Notes under the pieces: generated by a model | The model's input: only the letters and a program-made list of their open reading frames with translations | Databases searched by the model: none | Told to the model about the DNA's origin: nothing | Made by a program: the position numbers and the translations under genes | Source: Allobosea sp. CRIB-10 | Lineage (GTDB): Bacteria > Pseudomonadota > Alphaproteobacteria > Rhizobiales > Beijerinckiaceae | DNA length: 64,000 nt | NCBI RefSeq assembly: GCF_900112185.1 | Contig: NZ_FOKP01000003.1 | Location: 310,001 to 374,000 of the forward strand | Direction: 5' to 3' | In this document: positions 844 through 64,000 of the stretch, piece by piece | Layout: the number at the start of each line of letters is the position of its first letter | How positions within the stretch are numbered: position 1 is the first letter of the stretch

Positions 844-2477
844 CGAGCGCTGCGAATACCGGCCCGGCCGGCGGACTGAAGCCCGTGACGACGCGGGTGA
901 TGAACCTCGCGCATGTCCTGACGCGCAATGCCCGCTGCTTCGCAGATCGCCCCGGGCTGATCTGGGGAGAGCGGCAATGGAGCTGGGCCGAGCTCGACGC
1001 GGCGGCACACGCGCTCTGCGCGGCGCTGGCGGCGCGCGGCATCGGCAAGGGCGACCGCATCCTAGTCCACTCGAAGAATTGCGACGAGATGTTCGTCTCG
1101 ATGTTCGCCGCCTTCCGGTTGGGCGCCGTCTGGGTGCCGACCAATTTCCGGCTGATGCCGGACGAGGTCGCCTGGCTCGCGACCTCCTCGGGCGCCAGGG
1201 GCTTCCTCTGCCATGGCGATTTCCCCGATCATGCCGCGGCGGTCGCCAGGGAGAGCAAGGCGCTGCAGTTCACCTGGCGGATCGGTGCGGGCGCCTTCGG
1301 CGAGACGACGCTGACGGAGGCGATCGCCGCGCATCAGGGCAGCCGCGTGCCGGACGCCGTCGTCGACCGCGACGATCCCTGCTGGTTCTTCTTTACCTCG
1401 GGGACCACCGGACGCTCCAAGGCGGCGGTGCTCACCCATGGCCAGATGGGCTTCGTCATCACCAACCATCTCGCCGACCTCGTGCCGGGCTCGACGGAAG
1501 CCGACGCATCGCTCGTGGTCGCGCCGCTCTCGCATGGCGCCGGCGTGCACCAGCTCGTGCTCTCGGCCCGTGGCGCGCCCTCGATCCTGCTGCCGACCGA
1601 GCGCTTCGACATCGACGAAGCCTTCCGGCTGATCGAAAAGCACCGGGTCACCAATATCTTCACGGTGCCGACGATCCTGAAGATGCTGGTCGAGCATCCG
1701 GCCGTCGACCAGCACGATCATTCCAGCCTGCGCCATGTCATCTATGCCGGCGCGCCGATGTATCGCGAGGACCAGAAGACCGCGCTGAAGAAGCTCGGCA
1801 AGGTGCTGGTGCAGTATTTCGGCCTCGGCGAGGTCACCGGCAACATCACGGTGCTGCCGACCCATCTGCACGAGGAAGAGGACGGGCCGGCGGCGCGCAT
1901 CGGCAGCTGCGGCGTCGAGCGCACCGGCATCCAGGTCTCGATCCAGAACGACGAGGGCGAAGAGCTCAAGCCCTTCGAGACCGGCGAGATCTGCGTGATC
2001 GGCCCGGCCGTCTTCGCCGGCTATTACGAGAACCCGGAAGCCAATGCGAAGTCCTTCCGCAATGGCTGGTTCCGCACCGGCGACCTCGGCCATATGGACG
2101 AGGAGGGCTTCGTCTACATCACCGGCCGCGCCTCCGACATGTACATCTCCGGCGGCTCGAACATCTATCCGCGCGAGATCGAGGAGAAGCTCCTGACCCA
2201 TCCGGCGATCGCCGAGGCCGCCGTGCTCGGCGTGCCAGATGCGGTCTGGGGCGAGATCGGCGTCGCCGTCTGCGTCGCGCGCGGCCCTGTCGACGAGAAC
2301 GAGCTGGCGAGCTACCTCGCCGAGAAGATCCCGCGCTACAAGATGCCGAAGCGCTTCTTCTTCTTCGAAGAGCTGCCGAAATCCGGCTATGGCAAGGTGC
2401 CCAAGCGGCTGGTGCGCGACGAGTTGGAGAAGCGCGGCCTGCTCGACTTCGTGCGCGTGCCGGGAGCTTCCGCGTGA
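840..2477 (+). CDS. AMP-binding acyl-CoA synthetase
   Basis: This 545-residue protein is an adenylate-forming enzyme that should activate a carboxylic acid with ATP and then join it to CoA. The P-loop-like motif TSGTTGRSK lies at about residues 186-194. The adenylation-site motif YFGLGEVTGN, the hinge region GWFRTGDLGHMDEEGFVYITGR and the C-terminal lysine motif PKSGYGKVPKR are all present. The start overlaps the IclR gene by four bases and the end overlaps the PPC-domain gene by four bases. The regulator points to an inducible catabolic role. The substrate cannot be read from the sequence; short or medium chain, branched or aromatic acids are all possible. Confidence 0.9.
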   Translation: MTSAANTGPAGGLKPVTTRVMNLAHVLTRNARCFADRPGLIWGERQWSWAELDAAAHALCAALAARGIGKGDRILVHSKNCDEMFVSMFAAFRLGAVWVPTNFRLMPDEVAWLATSSGARGFLCHGDFPDHAAAVARESKALQFTWRIGAGAFGETTLTEAIAAHQGSRVPDAVVDRDDPCWFFFTSGTTGRSKAAVLTHGQMGFVITNHLADLVPGSTEADASLVVAPLSHGAGVHQLVLSARGAPSILLPTERFDIDEAFRLIEKHRVTNIFTVPTILKMLVEHPAVDQHDHSSLRHVIYAGAPMYREDQKTALKKLGKVLVQYFGLGEVTGNITVLPTHLHEEEDGPAARIGSCGVERTGIQVSIQNDEGEELKPFETGEICVIGPAVFAGYYENPEANAKSFRNGWFRTGDLGHMDEEGFVYITGRASDMYISGGSNIYPREIEEKLLTHPAIAEAAVLGVPDAVWGEIGVAVCVARGPVDENELASYLAEKIPRYKMPKRFFFFEELPKSGYGKVPKRLVRDELEKRGLLDFVRVPGASA

Positions 2478-3331
2478 GGACGATCCAGCAGCCGGGGCCG
2501 GCCGAGCCCGAGCGCATCCAATGGCTGGAGGCGCGAGGCCGCAAGCTCACGCTGGACTTGAGGCCCGGTCTGCTGCTCGACGCGATCGCAGAGGCCTTCG
2601 CGGCGCAGGGCTTTTCCAGCGGTGTGTTGCGCCTGCCGGCGGCACTGCCGCTGGCGCCCTTCGCCTATGTCATGCCGGCGCTGTCGGCCACGCCGGAGCA
2701 TGCCGCCTTCTACAGCGAGACCTTCCGGCCGGATGGCGTGACCCGGATCGAGACGGGAGCGCTGACCTTCGGCGAGCGCGACGGCGCGCCGTTCTTCCAC
2801 GGACACGCGCTTTGGCGAGAGGCTGACGGCCGGCACAATGGCGGCCATATCCTGCCGGACCAGAGCTTCCTGGCCGAACCTATCAGCGTCGATGCAGTCG
2901 GGCTGGATGGCGCCGGCTTCGTCGCCGGCCATGATCCGGAGACCAATTTCAAGCTGTTCATGCCGGCGGAGCGGCTAAGCACTGGCGCAGAAGCCGCCGG
3001 CCGGTTCTTCGTGCTGCGGCTACGGCCGAACCGCGACGTCTTCACCGCACTGGAAGACTTCTGCGCCGAGCGGGATATCGCTCACGCGGTCATCCATGGC
3101 GGCGTCGGCTCGACCATCGGGGCGCGCTTCGCCGATGGCCGCTCGATCGAACCCTTCGCCACCGAGATCGCGATCACAGCCGGCCATGTCGCGCCCGGCG
3201 CCGATGGCGCTCCGGAAGCTGCGCTCGCCATCGCGCTGGTCGACTATACCGGCGGCATGGCGCAAGGCGCGCTCGCGCGCGGCGACAATCCGGTGCTGAT
3301 GACGCTGGAGCTGGTGCTGGAGGCGCAGTAG
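2474..3331 (+). CDS. PPC (DUF296) domain-containing protein
   Basis: The GTG start at 2474 overlaps the synthetase stop as GTGA and yields 285 residues. The longer open frame upstream is only the shadow of the two preceding genes. The C-terminal half looks like a PPC/DUF296 domain: FFVLRLRPNRDVFTALEDFCAERDIAHAV, then a GGVGS segment and a glycine-rich strand near the end. The N-terminal half may be a second, diverged copy. In bacteria such proteins stand alone without AT-hooks and their biochemical role is poorly known. Its place as third gene of an IclR/acyl-CoA synthetase operon suggests a catabolic or ligand-binding role, which is inference. Confidence 0.75.
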   Translation: MRTIQQPGPAEPERIQWLEARGRKLTLDLRPGLLLDAIAEAFAAQGFSSGVLRLPAALPLAPFAYVMPALSATPEHAAFYSETFRPDGVTRIETGALTFGERDGAPFFHGHALWREADGRHNGGHILPDQSFLAEPISVDAVGLDGAGFVAGHDPETNFKLFMPAERLSTGAEAAGRFFVLRLRPNRDVFTALEDFCAERDIAHAVIHGGVGSTIGARFADGRSIEPFATEIAITAGHVAPGADGAPEAALAIALVDYTGGMAQGALARGDNPVLMTLELVLEAQ

Positions 3332-60170: not shown

Positions 60171-62495
60171 TTAATCATTGCCGCGAGGTAGACTGTCGAA
60201 AAGGTCGCGTACATCGGTCTCTTCAACGCGCTGTTCGTATCTCTGCTCTCTATAGTAATCCATTTGCTCATCAGCACGCGCCTCCTCATGCTCTTCGAAC
60301 TCGTCCCACTCCGTTTGGATGGCATCGAGGCGACCTTCGAGATTGACCGGCAGAGCCTGTTGTAGCTGCTCCAGTTGGTCCTTGAATTGGTGATATTCAG
60401 ATGACGAGCGAAGCTCGCCTAGGCGATCCGAAAAGCCGAATGTCAACCAATATTCTAGACCCTCGCAAATCGCTGCCTTCTCATTTTGCGTACCGTTCTC
60501 AAATAGCGTCAGCATGGCCAGTGCTTCTTCGGGCGCAATGCGGGTTCGCGCGATTCTCAGTAGTTCAATCCGCAACGGCTCCGTGAATTGGTCGATTCCG
60601 ATATAGACGGGCCAAGGCATGTCACGGACTGCTTCGATAACGCGCACGCCATCCTCGAACTCGGCCTCGTCAAAAGCTCGCCATTCGTCAAGCAACGCCT
60701 CCAGCGCAGATCCCACGATAGCAAAAATCTCCTCAGCTTGAACGCTTTGTGCGATCTGAATGAGAAAGAGGACGCGCCGCTCAAGGCTTGGCGCGAGATG
60801 GACAACAGCGCCCTTAACCACAAGACGGCGAGGTGTAGCCATTAGCCGCTGAAAGCTATCCCGCAGCACAGCGGGCGCCGCTGCAATGGCCGCACGCAGT
60901 TTAGTCCCGTCGGCAGCCGTGGCCAAAGCCCAGCAGTGCTCAATCTGCGCGACACTCACTGCGCCTCGGATAACGTCAACCCCGTTTTCGGGCTCAGAGC
61001 GAAGCACTGCGTTCATCAAGTCAATGACTGACGGGTCCAAAAACTCCACCACATCACGACGCAGATTGATAAAAGTGCCAGTGAGGCTACGGAGTCCTGC
61101 CTCAAAATCGCCAGGAGCGAGGGGAAAGCGATAGGTTTCGCCTCTGGCAGAGTGCAGCTTCTTGAAAGCTTCATGCAAGCGGGAAAGAGTAGCTTGCCCG
61201 CTTAACGAATGAAGGGAAAGCAGCAAGCTCCGCTCGCTATCCCCGATCTGCCTATCATAGGCATGGCGCCAGATATCAGAAGGGTCAGAAAGCAAACTCC
61301 GAACAAAAGATCGGAAATCCTGCACGCTCACTCGTTTGATTCGCTTGAAATCAGAAAGCCACTCTACCAGCCTAGGTGAAAATTTCTGATGCCTGACGAT
61401 CTCAAGATAAAACTCCTCTCGCAACAGCTCCTTTTGATATGGCTTAGGTAAATCACCAAAGAATAAGTGGTTGTAGAGAATTCGGGCCCGTTTGCGCTCG
61501 TCGAGAGCCGTTAACGAAATAGTCAACTTGTGGCTATCGACCATGGCGTGCCGCAGCCGCTCCGAGCCAGACAGCGCTTGCGCAAATAGATGCTCGCGCG
61601 TGGTGAGAACCAATCTAGTCTGAGGATTGCCGCGTACAAACTCTATGAAATCGACAATAGCGCGATCCTCATTGCGCGCCAGCGGCATCCCACCTTCCCT
61701 TAAAAAAGTTGCTCCAAGGAAATCATCATAGTAGAAAATCGCCTTCTCATCTCCGAAATATAACTTACGTGCCTCATCAAAGCCATTACGAGCAATTATT
61801 GCTTTATAATCGTGGCGTAAATGTTCAAAGAGTAAGATATCTGCCAAAGTACTCTTACCTACACCGGGCGGACCGGAGATAATTACAATTCGCTCGGAAG
61901 CAAGATTTTGATGAGCTATAGGATATACATTGCTACGAACAAAACGCTGTATTTTTCTTCGGATACGATTTACTTCTAATTCACTCTGCGTCACTTCTGC
62001 ATTGTAAAGTACTTTTTGTAGAACAGCAACACTGGAAAGCCATAACTTAAAATGCTGCCGTTCTACCTTGGGGTATTGACCTAAAAGATTATTTAAATCA
62101 TCACGCCCAAGCAGGTTGGCAGTTGTCAAAATCGGCCCGAATAAGTTGACGATCTTCTCCTTCTGCGTGAGCGAGAGATCGACCGAGGTTGAGAGTATAT
62201 AGCGACTAACTGGAAGGGTTAGGTTCGGAAGCTTAAGCGCCTCCTCTTTCAGGTCACGGAAGAGCGCATCATACCCGGATCGCGCATAGTGCTTGCACTG
62301 CACCACACTTTGGTCGCGACCATGCGCGCGCCGGAAATCGACACCGCCATCTCGCCCGGTTTTGAAACTCTCAAAATCGACGCCATCGCGGGCTTGAAGG
62401 ACGTCTCTGGTGAGGTCCTCGAAATCGGCAGGCGACAATGTATGGAAATCATAATCTGGCAAGTTGTATCCCACTGAAACCGAACAACACTGCAT
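60171..62495 (-). CDS. Restriction endonuclease-like/nSTAND3 NTPase (probable defence protein)
   Basis: From the ATG at 62495 the protein has 774 residues. Residues 18-90 form a Mrr-type nuclease: Glu26, Asp53 in GGVDF and Gln66-x-Lys68 in VQCKHY. The NTPase follows, with Walker A GPPGVGKST around residues 208-216 and Walker B YYDDFLG at 255-261, the DDFLG form typical of nSTAND3. The rest is helical repeats, likely a sensor. GC content is far below the flanking genes, and its codon use is mixed, which implies transfer. A TTG at 62462 is another possible start. This layout matches antiviral STAND-type proteins in which target sensing triggers a nuclease. Confidence 0.85.
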   Translation of the reverse strand: MQCCSVSVGYNLPDYDFHTLSPADFEDLTRDVLQARDGVDFESFKTGRDGGVDFRRAHGRDQSVVQCKHYARSGYDALFRDLKEEALKLPNLTLPVSRYILSTSVDLSLTQKEKIVNLFGPILTTANLLGRDDLNNLLGQYPKVERQHFKLWLSSVAVLQKVLYNAEVTQSELEVNRIRRKIQRFVRSNVYPIAHQNLASERIVIISGPPGVGKSTLADILLFEHLRHDYKAIIARNGFDEARKLYFGDEKAIFYYDDFLGATFLREGGMPLARNEDRAIVDFIEFVRGNPQTRLVLTTREHLFAQALSGSERLRHAMVDSHKLTISLTALDERKRARILYNHLFFGDLPKPYQKELLREEFYLEIVRHQKFSPRLVEWLSDFKRIKRVSVQDFRSFVRSLLSDPSDIWRHAYDRQIGDSERSLLLSLHSLSGQATLSRLHEAFKKLHSARGETYRFPLAPGDFEAGLRSLTGTFINLRRDVVEFLDPSVIDLMNAVLRSEPENGVDVIRGAVSVAQIEHCWALATAADGTKLRAAIAAAPAVLRDSFQRLMATPRRLVVKGAVVHLAPSLERRVLFLIQIAQSVQAEEIFAIVGSALEALLDEWRAFDEAEFEDGVRVIEAVRDMPWPVYIGIDQFTEPLRIELLRIARTRIAPEEALAMLTLFENGTQNEKAAICEGLEYWLTFGFSDRLGELRSSSEYHQFKDQLEQLQQALPVNLEGRLDAIQTEWDEFEEHEEARADEQMDYYREQRYEQRVEETDVRDLFDSLPRGND

Positions 62496-62701
62496 TTGCA
62501 GAATAATTAATATCGAGGCCGACGAAAGGACAAGGCCGCTAAATCTGAAAGCAAATATCCTGATGTAAAAGTGATCCCGCCCTCCCGACCTCCCGTATGA
62601 TGCCGCGCATCCCATCCCCAAGGGGCGGCCGACCGGAGGCATGTCGTTTGGCGTGACATTCCGCTTGACGATGAATGCCGGCGCCGACAGTGTCCCGGGG
62701 C

Positions 62702-62797
62702 ATGCTCAGGAACCCGACCCTTTGCGACCGACGCCGACGCCGCTTCACCCGAGCGGCGGCTTCTTGGCTGCGCGTCGATCACCGTCCTTCCGTGTGA
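62702..62797 (+). CDS. Candidate arginine leader peptide of argC
   Basis: A 31-codon reading frame (ATG 62702, TGA 62795) lies upstream of argC. Codons 10-14 at 62729-62743 are five arginine codons in a row (CGA CGC CGA CGC CGC), and nine of 31 residues are arginine (positions 3, 10-14, 17, 24 and 28). CCGGGG precedes the start by one base, a weak ribosome site. The frame ends 51 bases before a terminator hairpin. The set is that of a ribosome-mediated attenuator. No expression evidence exists. Confidence 0.6.
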   Translation: MLRNPTLCDRRRRRFTRAAASWLRVDHRPSV

Positions 62798-62848
62798 AGG
62801 CCTCACCATAGGCCCCACCCGCCGGAGCGACCCCGGCCCGCATTCCTG

Positions 62849-62880
62849 AACCTCCGCAGCCCTCGGCTCCGGGGGTTTTT
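62849..62880 (+). terminator. Terminator hairpin in the argC leader
   Basis: The left arm (62849-62861, AACCTCCGCAGCC) pairs with 62865-62877 (GGCTCCGGGGGTT) with one C-C mismatch and one wobble, loop CTC, followed by T residues to 62880. It ends 30 bases before the argC ATG, so it should block argC unless it is prevented from forming. Its left arm CGCAGCC can alternatively pair with GGCTGCG at 62766-62772. Confidence 0.75.
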
Positions 62881-62909
62881 CTTTGCCCGAACCCCAAGAG
62901 GACACCACC

Positions 62910-63884
62910 ATGAGCATTCGCGTCGGCATTGTCGGCATCAGCGGTTTTGGCGGCGGCGAGGCGCTGCGCCTGATTGCGAGCCACCCGTCATTCGAGCTGG
63001 TCTACGCCGCCGGCGAGAGCAGCGCCGGCGGCCGCCTGGTCGACCGTTTCCCCGGTGTGCCGGCCAGGCTGGCCGGGCTGGTGATCGAGAAATGGGACCC
63101 GGCAACCCTGCCGAAGCTCGACCTGCTGTTCGCCTCGCTGCCCACGGGCGCCTCGGCCGAGGCGCTGGCGCGCGTCCCCAAAGACGTGAAGATCGTCGAT
63201 ATCGGCGGCGACCACCGCTATGTCGACGGCTGGGCCTATGGCCTAGCCGATATCTGGCCTGCCGAGATCGAAGGGCAGACCCGCGTCGCCAACCCCGGCT
63301 GCTTTCCCGCTGCGACACTGACCGCGCTGGCGCCGCTGCTGGCGGACAAGCTGATTGAGCCCGGGAATATCGTCATCGACGTCAAGACCGGCATCTCCGG
63401 CGCCGGCCGGGGCGGCGACAGCAAGTTCGGCTACGCCGAGAGCAATGAGAACCTGGTGCCCTACGGCCTGCTCAGGCACACCCACATGCCCGAGATCGCC
63501 AGCACGATCGAGCGGCTGAGCGGCGGCAGTGCGGCCGGGCTGGTGTTCACGCCGCATCTGGTACCGATGACCCGCGGCATCCTCGCCACGATCTACTGCC
63601 GCGGCCACGCCACCACGGACCAATGCCTGGACGCAGCGCGGCGCTTCTATGCCGGGCGCTCCTTCGTGCGCGTGACCGACAAGCCGCCGCAGACCAAATG
63701 GGCGACTGGCTCGAACCTCGCCTTCGTCAGCTATGCGGCCGATCCGGAGCGCAATCTGGTGATCGCGCTGGGCGTCGTCGACAATCTCGGCAAGGGAGCG
63801 GCGGGCCAGGCGATGCAGAACGCGAACCTGATCTGCGGCCTGCCGGAAACCGCGGGATTGGACGGCGCACCTGTCTGGCCGTGA
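62910..63884 (+). CDS. argC: N-acetyl-gamma-glutamyl-phosphate reductase
   Basis: The 324-residue enzyme reduces N-acetylglutamyl phosphate to the semialdehyde in arginine synthesis. It has the NADP motif GISGFGGGEALR, active-site Cys131 in NPGCFPAA and the histidine region RHTHMPEI. The ATG at 62910 has AGAGGAC upstream. Upstream lie a terminator hairpin and an arginine-rich short reading frame, suggesting attenuation. No other arg genes are in the window. Confidence 0.95.
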   Translation: MSIRVGIVGISGFGGGEALRLIASHPSFELVYAAGESSAGGRLVDRFPGVPARLAGLVIEKWDPATLPKLDLLFASLPTGASAEALARVPKDVKIVDIGGDHRYVDGWAYGLADIWPAEIEGQTRVANPGCFPAATLTALAPLLADKLIEPGNIVIDVKTGISGAGRGGDSKFGYAESNENLVPYGLLRHTHMPEIASTIERLSGGSAAGLVFTPHLVPMTRGILATIYCRGHATTDQCLDAARRFYAGRSFVRVTDKPPQTKWATGSNLAFVSYAADPERNLVIALGVVDNLGKGAAGQAMQNANLICGLPETAGLDGAPVWP

Positions 63885-63889
63885 TCAAG

Positions 63890-63931
63890 GCGGACCTCCC
63901 GGCAGCTCATCAATCTGCTTCGGAGGTCCGC
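63890..63931. terminator. Hairpin after argC
   Basis: GCGGACCTCC and GGAGGTCCGC are perfect ten-base arms around a 22-base centre, with further pairing of GGCAG and CTGCT. It begins five bases after the argC stop and probably ends the transcript; no T-run follows. It could serve a gene arriving from the right on the other strand. Confidence 0.6.
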
Positions 63932-63962
63932 TCATGCGCGCAAGCGGCGCCGGTGTCGCGGC

Positions 63963-64000
63963 TCAAAAGCCGTACATCGCGATCATGATCCCGAAGGCGA
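63963..64000 (-). CDS. Possible 3' end of a minus-strand membrane protein
   Basis: The minus-strand frame entering from the right edge reads AFGIMIAMYGF and then stops (TGA at 63965-63963). The hydrophobic end resembles a membrane protein C-terminus. Only about 11 codons are visible, so neither family nor reality can be settled; the convergent hairpin at 63890-63931 is consistent with a gene here. Confidence 0.25.
   Translation of the reverse strand, partial: AFGIMIAMYGF

Follow-up and report, generated by a model that had tools for sequence, protein, structure and literature searches.

How is an argC gene controlled when a short open reading frame (ORF) rich in Arg codons and a terminator hairpin stand before it? 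The question is raised by a locus of Allobosea sp. CRIB-10, which lies within the 64,000-nucleotide stretch of DNA analyzed here (hereafter the window). In the trp and his attenuators of Escherichia coli, a protector, an antiterminator and a terminator act by a logic to which the argC leader appears to conform, and an original prediction had proposed such an attenuator for this locus. Classical attenuators are described as serving trp, his, thr, phe, branched-chain and cys genes, whereas arginine control at the RNA level is described for T-boxes and, for a polyamine gene, for speF orf34 (available parts of PMC6386406, PMC1262725 and PMC8632094). A survey of Actinobacteria, in its accessible text, reports that no structure is conserved 5' of the arginine operons of this group and that arginine T-boxes occur outside it (PMC1262725), and the available part of PMC4448311 names argC only in tables. 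Among the records listed in searches of open-access full texts, we found no attenuator of the trp/his type for arginine biosynthesis.

Anatomy of the argC leader

In 5'-to-3' order, the window holds a promoter-like element, the leader ATG, the Arg run, TGA, a terminator hairpin with a U-rich tail and argC (Table 1). The sequence confirmed the 31-codon frame with five Arg codons that had been predicted ahead of a terminator and argC, and the predicted limits of the terminator (62849–62880) proved right to within a few bases. Its stem is formed by 62850–62856 and 62870–62876 plus an inner stem, the U-rich stretch spans 62876–62884, and the isolated hairpin of the window has a predicted energy of −16.5 kcal/mol. 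The three short segments first proposed to pair also lie where they had been placed (GGCTGCG at 62766–62772, GCGTCG at 62772–62777 and CGCAGCC at 62855–62861). The window leader RNA was more stable than 200 of 200 dinucleotide shuffles (z −2.94). A simple terminator scan of 60500–64000 returned 4 sites versus 3.8 expected, the site given here being a weaker hairpin at 62858–62877.

A TTGAC motif is found 35–38 nt upstream of the leader ATG in 65 of 66 distinct copies of the leader. The putative −10 element (CAGTGT) is weak by the E. coli-type consensus, and a scan of 60500–64000 for E. coli-type promoters listed none at the leader, so the promoter case rests on the conserved spacing. Because the distance from TTGAC to ATG is constant, the transcription start is placed at or next to the ATG. 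The transcript would thus begin at or very near the leader ATG, as deduced from promoter spacing, and the leader ORF is probably leaderless. The trpL of S. meliloti is likewise described as leaderless in the available parts of PMC7298713 and PMC10117765.

Adjoining the leader, a divergent gene (window 60171–62477, minus strand) carries Mrr_cat and nSTAND3 domains, and its product looks like an Mrr/STAND-type defence protein.

Table 1 Features of the argC leader region, in window coordinates
Feature	Position	Strand	Basis
Putative promoter	62665–62693	+	TTGACG 62665–62670, 17-nt spacer, CAGTGT 62688–62693
Leader ORF, 31 codons + TGA, probably leaderless	62702–62797	+	ATG 62702, TGA 62795–62797
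Sensor, five adjacent Arg codons (CGA CGC CGA CGC CGC)	62729–62743	+	Read from the sequence
Protector structure hiding the antiterminator 5' arm	62726–62780	+	Predicted fold
Protector outer stem	62726–62734/62772–62780	+	79.1% of cells paired
Protector inner hairpin over the last Arg codons	62739–62745/62751–62757	+	89.9% of cells paired, including a 3-pair extension
Antiterminator 5' arm	62753–62777	+	Single-sequence folding and pair counts
Antiterminator 3' arm, its end being the terminator 5' arm	62834–62857	+	90.4% of 1089 cells paired with the 5' arm
Intrinsic terminator, hairpin (62850–62876) and U-rich tail	62850–62884	+	99.3% of 604 cells paired
argC, N-acetyl-gamma-glutamyl-phosphate reductase, TIGR01850 type, accessory copy	62910–63884	+	Above the TIGR01850 cut-off

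Distribution of the leader

Relatives of argC were collected by a scan of genome contigs, with the best 80 of 276 retained; 79 were usable, since upstream sequence is missing for L053. Among these best-scoring relatives, a leader with terminator was present 5' of argC in 55 of 79, directly before the gene in 50 of the 55 and 546–1260 nt before it, with other sequence between, in five (L032, L040, L062, L079 and L052). The top argC matches of the same best 80 of 276, at 94–96% identity, include Bosea lupini, other Bosea and a MAG labelled Methylobacterium. Leader DNA was detected in 27 of 67 genomes of the genus, and ArgC of the TIGR01850 type (E ≤ 1e-60) in the same 27; one of them (G026) has two copies of each.

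The 85 nhmmer rows for the leader were reduced to 67 by removing one weak row and collapsing exact duplicates, and to 66 by excluding L034, whose leader has no in-frame start. Their titles name Bosea, Reyranella, Methylobacterium, Vineibacter, Belnapia, Roseomonas and relatives, Asaia and unclassified alphaproteobacteria, with many MAGs. Alignments A1 and A2 hold 55 of the 66 copies (<93% identical).

The leader model R1 was further run on 385 genomes of the class (an even draw, with strict filters), of which 29 matched at E ≤ 0.001. True leaders were present only in the source genome, G346 and G424 (168–193 bits), so the element is sporadic in this draw. In the other 26 genomes, none of the best hits (L121–L146, 21–31 bits) showed two of the four marks (GCGGCGGC, CCGCAGCC, CGACGCCG and an ArgC motif downstream), and these weak matches were therefore taken as chance or unrelated terminators. 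Within the source genome, R1 had 8 places at E ≤ 10, and only the known site was strong (193 bits; next 15.5). The recurrence of the leader in argC relatives and genus genomes, together with its better-than-shuffled fold, indicates more than chance.

Several further arrangements were observed at these loci. In L032, an ORF between attenuator and argC (2432–3004) resembles, by eye, a GNAT acetyltransferase. A second, truncated leader copy in L147 (~1501–1610; G424:C1:2590577-2590686) is followed by sequence that by eye resembles the 3' part of argC, perhaps the relic of an internally deleted cassette. The 24 relatives without leader (best 80 of 276) yielded no terminator-like site in a simple motif search; in the leaderless loci L011, L017, L024, L025, L027, L028, L039, L054 and L070, another short element, common to them, can be seen by eye near TTCGCTCACTCCAGCAGTAGGACACC before the start codon; it looks like a different leader. 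In the Reyranella/Rhodospirillales loci L030, L036, L044 and L058, argC seems, again by eye, to lie directly 3' of the end of another argC-like gene.

The leader frame and its Arg run

The Arg run is in frame with the ATG, without a stop between them, in all 66 copies. It comprises five codons in 36 copies, four in 26, three in 3 and six in 1. Because the letters CGACGC served to locate the copies, this selection partly dictates the first two codons of the run. The selection is not absolute, as L119 has an interrupted run (CGA TGC CGA CGT CGC); the plasmid copy L151 has two Arg codons only. ORFs with at least three consecutive Arg codons also occur in 8 of the 24 argC upstream stretches without leader (best 80 of 276), so an Arg run alone is weak evidence in such GC-rich DNA, and frame +1 is likewise open over 45 nt in 53 of the 66 copies.

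Two leader families were distinguished: 52 copies are of a Bosea type, with 9 codons before the run, and 14 of a Roseomonas type, with 10 codons and different residues. Both keep the frame and the Arg run. The families are not strictly taxonomic, given that Belnapia and Paracraurococcus (L051, L068), which we take to be Acetobacteraceae like Roseomonas, carry the Bosea type. The window leader is 62–63% identical to those of the Roseomonas-type copies L035 and L072, versus 87–88% for argC DNA, and the core segments are nearly invariant (the Arg run, GCGGCGGC, GGCTGCG, CCGCAGCC and the terminator, with the U-tract also conserved), which argues for retention of the leader beyond recent descent. 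Conservation in relatives, which the original prediction had made its check, held for the Arg codons, the terminator and the alternative pairings.

CGA accounts for 39% of the 299 run codons versus 3.4% of Arg codons in 40 long window ORFs, a preference that is also fixed by base pairing and partly by the CGACGC anchor used for locating copies. Most bacteria decode CGA, CGC and CGU with a single tRNA, which would make a CGA/CGC run a sensitive gauge. Heterozygosity at codon positions 1, 2 and 3 was 0.14, 0.21 and 0.22 in 50 of the 52 Bosea-type leaders, and 0.25, 0.22 and 0.17 in the 14 Roseomonas-type leaders. In many relatives the leader ORF has 36–37 codons and its stop lies further downstream. 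A 1-base deletion after the Arg run, found in the window and several copies, shifts the frame to an earlier stop and leaves the segment GGCTGCGCGTCGATC largely unchanged, suggesting that selection there acts on RNA pairing and not on the peptide C-terminus.

Predicted folding follows the ribosome

In the ribosome-free window RNA, folding placed the Arg codons inside the protector structure and formed the terminator. For RNA under translation, the part covered by the ribosome, taken to extend 14 nt beyond the start of its A-site codon, was removed, and the nascent RNA was folded to just past the terminator 5' arm. A long antiterminator was derived from this single-sequence folding and then tested. 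In it, GCGG.GG..GTCG pairs with CGGC..CCTCCGC, sequestering the terminator 5' arm. Its probability in the window at 30 °C was 0.97, 0.97, 0.97 and 0.98 with the A-site on Arg codons 1 to 4, 0.31 with the A-site one codon before the run, and 0.00 without a ribosome or from the fifth Arg codon on. Among the 66 copies, it exceeded 0.5 in 37, 51, 49 and 38 with the A-site on run codons 1 to 4, in 2 and 14 with the A-site two and one codons before the run, and in none without a ribosome or from the fifth codon; 11 copies never exceeded 0.5 on codons 1–4.

The view that a ribosome stalled for Arg would favor an antiterminator is thus supported by nascent RNA folding, and the pairing first named for it is replaced by 62753–62777 with 62834–62857. 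The 5' arm starts 9–15 nt downstream of the last Arg codon's first base, immediately in front of the stalled ribosome, which answers the caveat, attached to the original prediction, that the competing segment precedes the leader stop. Under the assumed 14-nt footprint, a ribosome on the fifth Arg codon would already mask this arm; a somewhat smaller footprint would make the fifth codon active. At 37 °C, expressed by the ribosome leading edge, exposure was confined to about 11 nt.

The dependence on ribosome position was lost when the linker was shuffled (every second of the 66 copies, n = 33, and 132 shuffled). Mean sequestration of the terminator arm in the 33 real copies was 0.18 without a ribosome, 0.81 with the ribosome on the second Arg codon and 0.24 at index +8, versus 0.41, 0.45 and 0.42 at the same positions after shuffling. 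The sequestration contrast was greater than 0.4 in 19 of 33 real but only 3 of 132 shuffled copies. It was also seen in four of five further copies (L119, L120, L151 and L152); in the fifth, L150, the arm is sequestered at 0.83 even without a ribosome, leaving no contrast. The specific long pairing reached at most 0.12 in L120 despite the contrast, and in L151 it spans the three codons that precede the run plus the first, but not the second, of the two Arg codons.

In full-length RNA at equilibrium, the terminator had a mean probability of 0.75–0.87 with the ribosome on codons 1–4 (66 copies), and in the window 0.92 on codons 1–3 and 0.38 on codon 4. Because the terminator usually wins at equilibrium, kinetics must be assumed in which the antiterminator forms first and persists. 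In the window, the antiterminator leaves room for a weaker residual hairpin (−11.2 kcal/mol), which could cause leaky termination. RNAalifold, applied to the whole leader and to the linker, did not return the long antiterminator as the consensus; the pairings that it proposed were different ones, none of them with changes on both sides.

The antiterminator proposed at the outset, GGCTGCG with CGCAGCC, is probably wrong: it is nearly invariant, yet for a ribosome on any of Arg codons 1–5 of the window the predicted probability of this pairing is 0.00. High values appeared in the window only with the A-site 2–6 codons before the run (0.79–0.99) or 5–7 codons after its first codon (0.82–1.00), and 0.5 was exceeded in 9 of 66 copies for a stall on Arg codon 1, in 5 of 66 on Arg codon 4 and in 6 of 66 without a ribosome. 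With the ribosome at other positions, this pairing may serve as a decoy.

Conservation and covariation of the pairings

Pairs were counted in 55 copies (<93% identical; Table 1). For the antiterminator, 0 of 500 shuffles were as highly paired, and versions slid along the alignment were paired at 34–61%; changes on both sides were seen in 1 cell versus 1.8 expected in shuffles, and 93 of 500 shuffles reached its covariation score. The terminator showed 0 double changes. The inner protector hairpin had 12 double-change cells versus 8.5 in shuffles, and 3 of 500 shuffles reached its covariation score; when slid by 3 columns it was still 78% paired, with a higher covariation score. For the outer protector stem the figures were 2 double-change cells versus 1.3, with the score reached by 24 of 500. 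The pairing of GGCTGCG with CGCAGCC was 97.4% paired, with four of seven pairs invariant and no double change.

In an alignment-free comparison, 3' arms were swapped among species. The own arms gave a mean of −24.7 kcal/mol versus −23.7 kcal/mol for permuted ones, and 1 of 20000 permutations was as good as the own pairing, a figure that is inflated by relatedness. Overall covariation is weak; compensatory changes are scarce and the segments are nearly invariant, as expected of segments that each take part in two pairings and are partly coding. In the covariation check suggested at the start, the pairings thus proved conserved and compensatory changes few.

An accessory and apparently mobile argC

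A different ArgC, of type TIGR01851, is present in 66 of the 67 genus genomes, one copy each, whereas the TIGR01850 type occurs in 27. The source genome holds both, and the TIGR01850-type argC downstream of the attenuator is an accessory second ArgC. In the phylum, ArgC of this type reached E ≤ 1e-120 in 3 of 398 genomes, namely the source, a second member of the genus and, within the class, G173; R1 detects no leader at the G173 locus (L149).

When the window is compared with seven other genera or lineages, argC DNA identity (87–90%) is similar to protein identity (88–91%). The flanks of the locus are common to 8 of 231 pairs upstream and 5 of 231 downstream, a result that is partly trivial since distant genera are included. 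The gene was found in varied contexts, plasmids included: 19 plasmid records matched, 6 of which hold at least 80% of the query. Among these six, the leader is present on Methylobacterium aquaticum pMaq22A_1p, Agrobacterium leguminum pTiCFBP4996 and Roseomonas haemaphysalidis p546-1, and argC occurs without it on two Paracoccus plasmids and one Paraburkholderia plasmid. Judged by these sequences, the leader–argC cassette appears to move horizontally, and the gene seems mobile. ArgR (PF01316) was not found in the source genome (0/1), and a control detected PF01316 in 9 of 14 named genomes.

An attenuator model and its alternatives

The anatomy of the locus, its conservation, its linkage to argC and the dependence of the predicted fold on ribosome position are established, and the anatomy, conservation and fold dependence support the trp/his-type logic originally invoked. 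As in attenuators of that type, a short leader ORF lies between the predicted promoter and the gene, with tandem end-product codons and an intrinsic terminator before the gene; nascent-RNA folding predicts a mutually exclusive antiterminator, and full-length equilibrium mostly favors the terminator. We conclude that the leader is very probably a ribosome-mediated transcription attenuator that senses charged tRNA-Arg and controls the accessory argC, and that the long antiterminator is its likely form.

According to this model, a ribosome that has passed the Arg codons, or the lack of one, would let the protector form over the Arg codons and the GCGGCGGC segment. With the protector formed, the terminator would form and RNA polymerase would halt before argC. 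When charged tRNA-Arg is scarce, the ribosome would stall on the Arg run, breaking the protector and freeing GCGGCGGC..GTCG; the freed segment would pair with CGGC..CCTCCGC and hold the 5' half of the terminator, so that the polymerase would read into argC. We infer that transcription, stalling and read-through occur in this way in the cell.

A first alternative is that the terminator serves as a simple insulator, or that its attenuation rate is constant, and that the Arg run is a by-product of GC-rich paired RNA, in which CGACGC pairs with GCGTCG. Indeed, the Arg codons coincide with paired segments, so the conservation of CGACGC does not separate coding from pairing, and the open +1 frame and the Arg-run ORFs of leaderless stretches described above point the same way. 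This account is nevertheless improbable in our estimate. The run stays in frame with the ATG in every copy, even though the stretch preceding it varies between the two families in both length and sequence; the predicted switch depends specifically on where on the run the ribosome stands and vanishes on shuffling; and the promoter-like element keeps a fixed spacing.

The leader might alternatively encode an arrest peptide like TnaC or the fungal arginine attenuator peptide, the nascent chain stalling the ribosome in response to arginine or another ligand, and many copies do keep part of the peptide past the Arg run (AAA..AARRS..VTASP). However, the residues before the run are almost wholly different between the two families, and in several copies, the window among them, a one-base shift alters the C-terminal frame but leaves the RNA conserved. 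Moreover, if high arginine caused the stall, a biosynthetic gene would respond in the wrong direction, and we regard such a switch as very unlikely. Even less probable is a ligand-binding riboswitch or a T-box, which a structured leader with a terminator 5' of an amino-acid gene might bring to mind: the Rfam 15 covariance models, those for T-box and speF RNA included, gave no match at E ≤ 1 in 61000–64000, and the predicted switch needs a ribosome, not a ligand.

Discussion

The argC attenuator, as we envisage it, differs from those of E. coli trp and his in its arginine signal, its probably leaderless ORF and a stop that lies past the antiterminator 5' arm. Another close system is the S. meliloti trpL (rnTrpL/peTrpL), described in the available part of PMC7298713 as an alphaproteobacterial ribosome-dependent attenuator with a transcript that starts at the ATG, consecutive end-product codons and a terminator before the gene. 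That system responds to Trp, has 14 codons and precedes trpE(G), whereas the present one has Arg codons, ~31–37 codons, an accessory argC and a different RNA. In Salmonella speF orf34, as the accessible text of PMC6386406 describes it, consecutive Arg codons in a short upstream ORF also sense arginine via ribosome pausing. It differs in having two Arg codons, in acting through Rho, RNase G and ribosome-site access, and in serving a polyamine gene; for the speF 5' UTR its authors state that they found no Rho-independent terminator (same source, same part). The uORFC-8-2 upstream of cysS in Rhodobacterales is similarly presented, in the part of PMC8632094 available, as a predicted attenuator of alphaproteobacteria that combines tandem codons within a stem and an intrinsic terminator, but with Cys codons and cysS in place of Arg codons and argC.

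A bolder reading, which we consider rather unlikely as a whole, is that the leader is a self-contained, portable arginine-starvation switch. It would travel with the spare argC among alphaproteobacteria and onto plasmids and work in hosts without ArgR, being portable since only the host ribosome and tRNA-Arg are needed, and its ~180-nt terminated leaderless mRNA may act in trans like rnTrpL.

Notable in the proposed argC attenuator are the amino acid sensed, the ORF that is probably leaderless and the apparent co-transfer with a spare gene. This kind of control would be extended to arginine by a classical attenuator of its biosynthesis, which would also show one arginine-sensing route in a genome where ArgR was not found. 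The lineages that carry the leader and argC can be grown and tested. Our findings further suggest that an accessory isozyme could move together with its own host-independent starvation switch.
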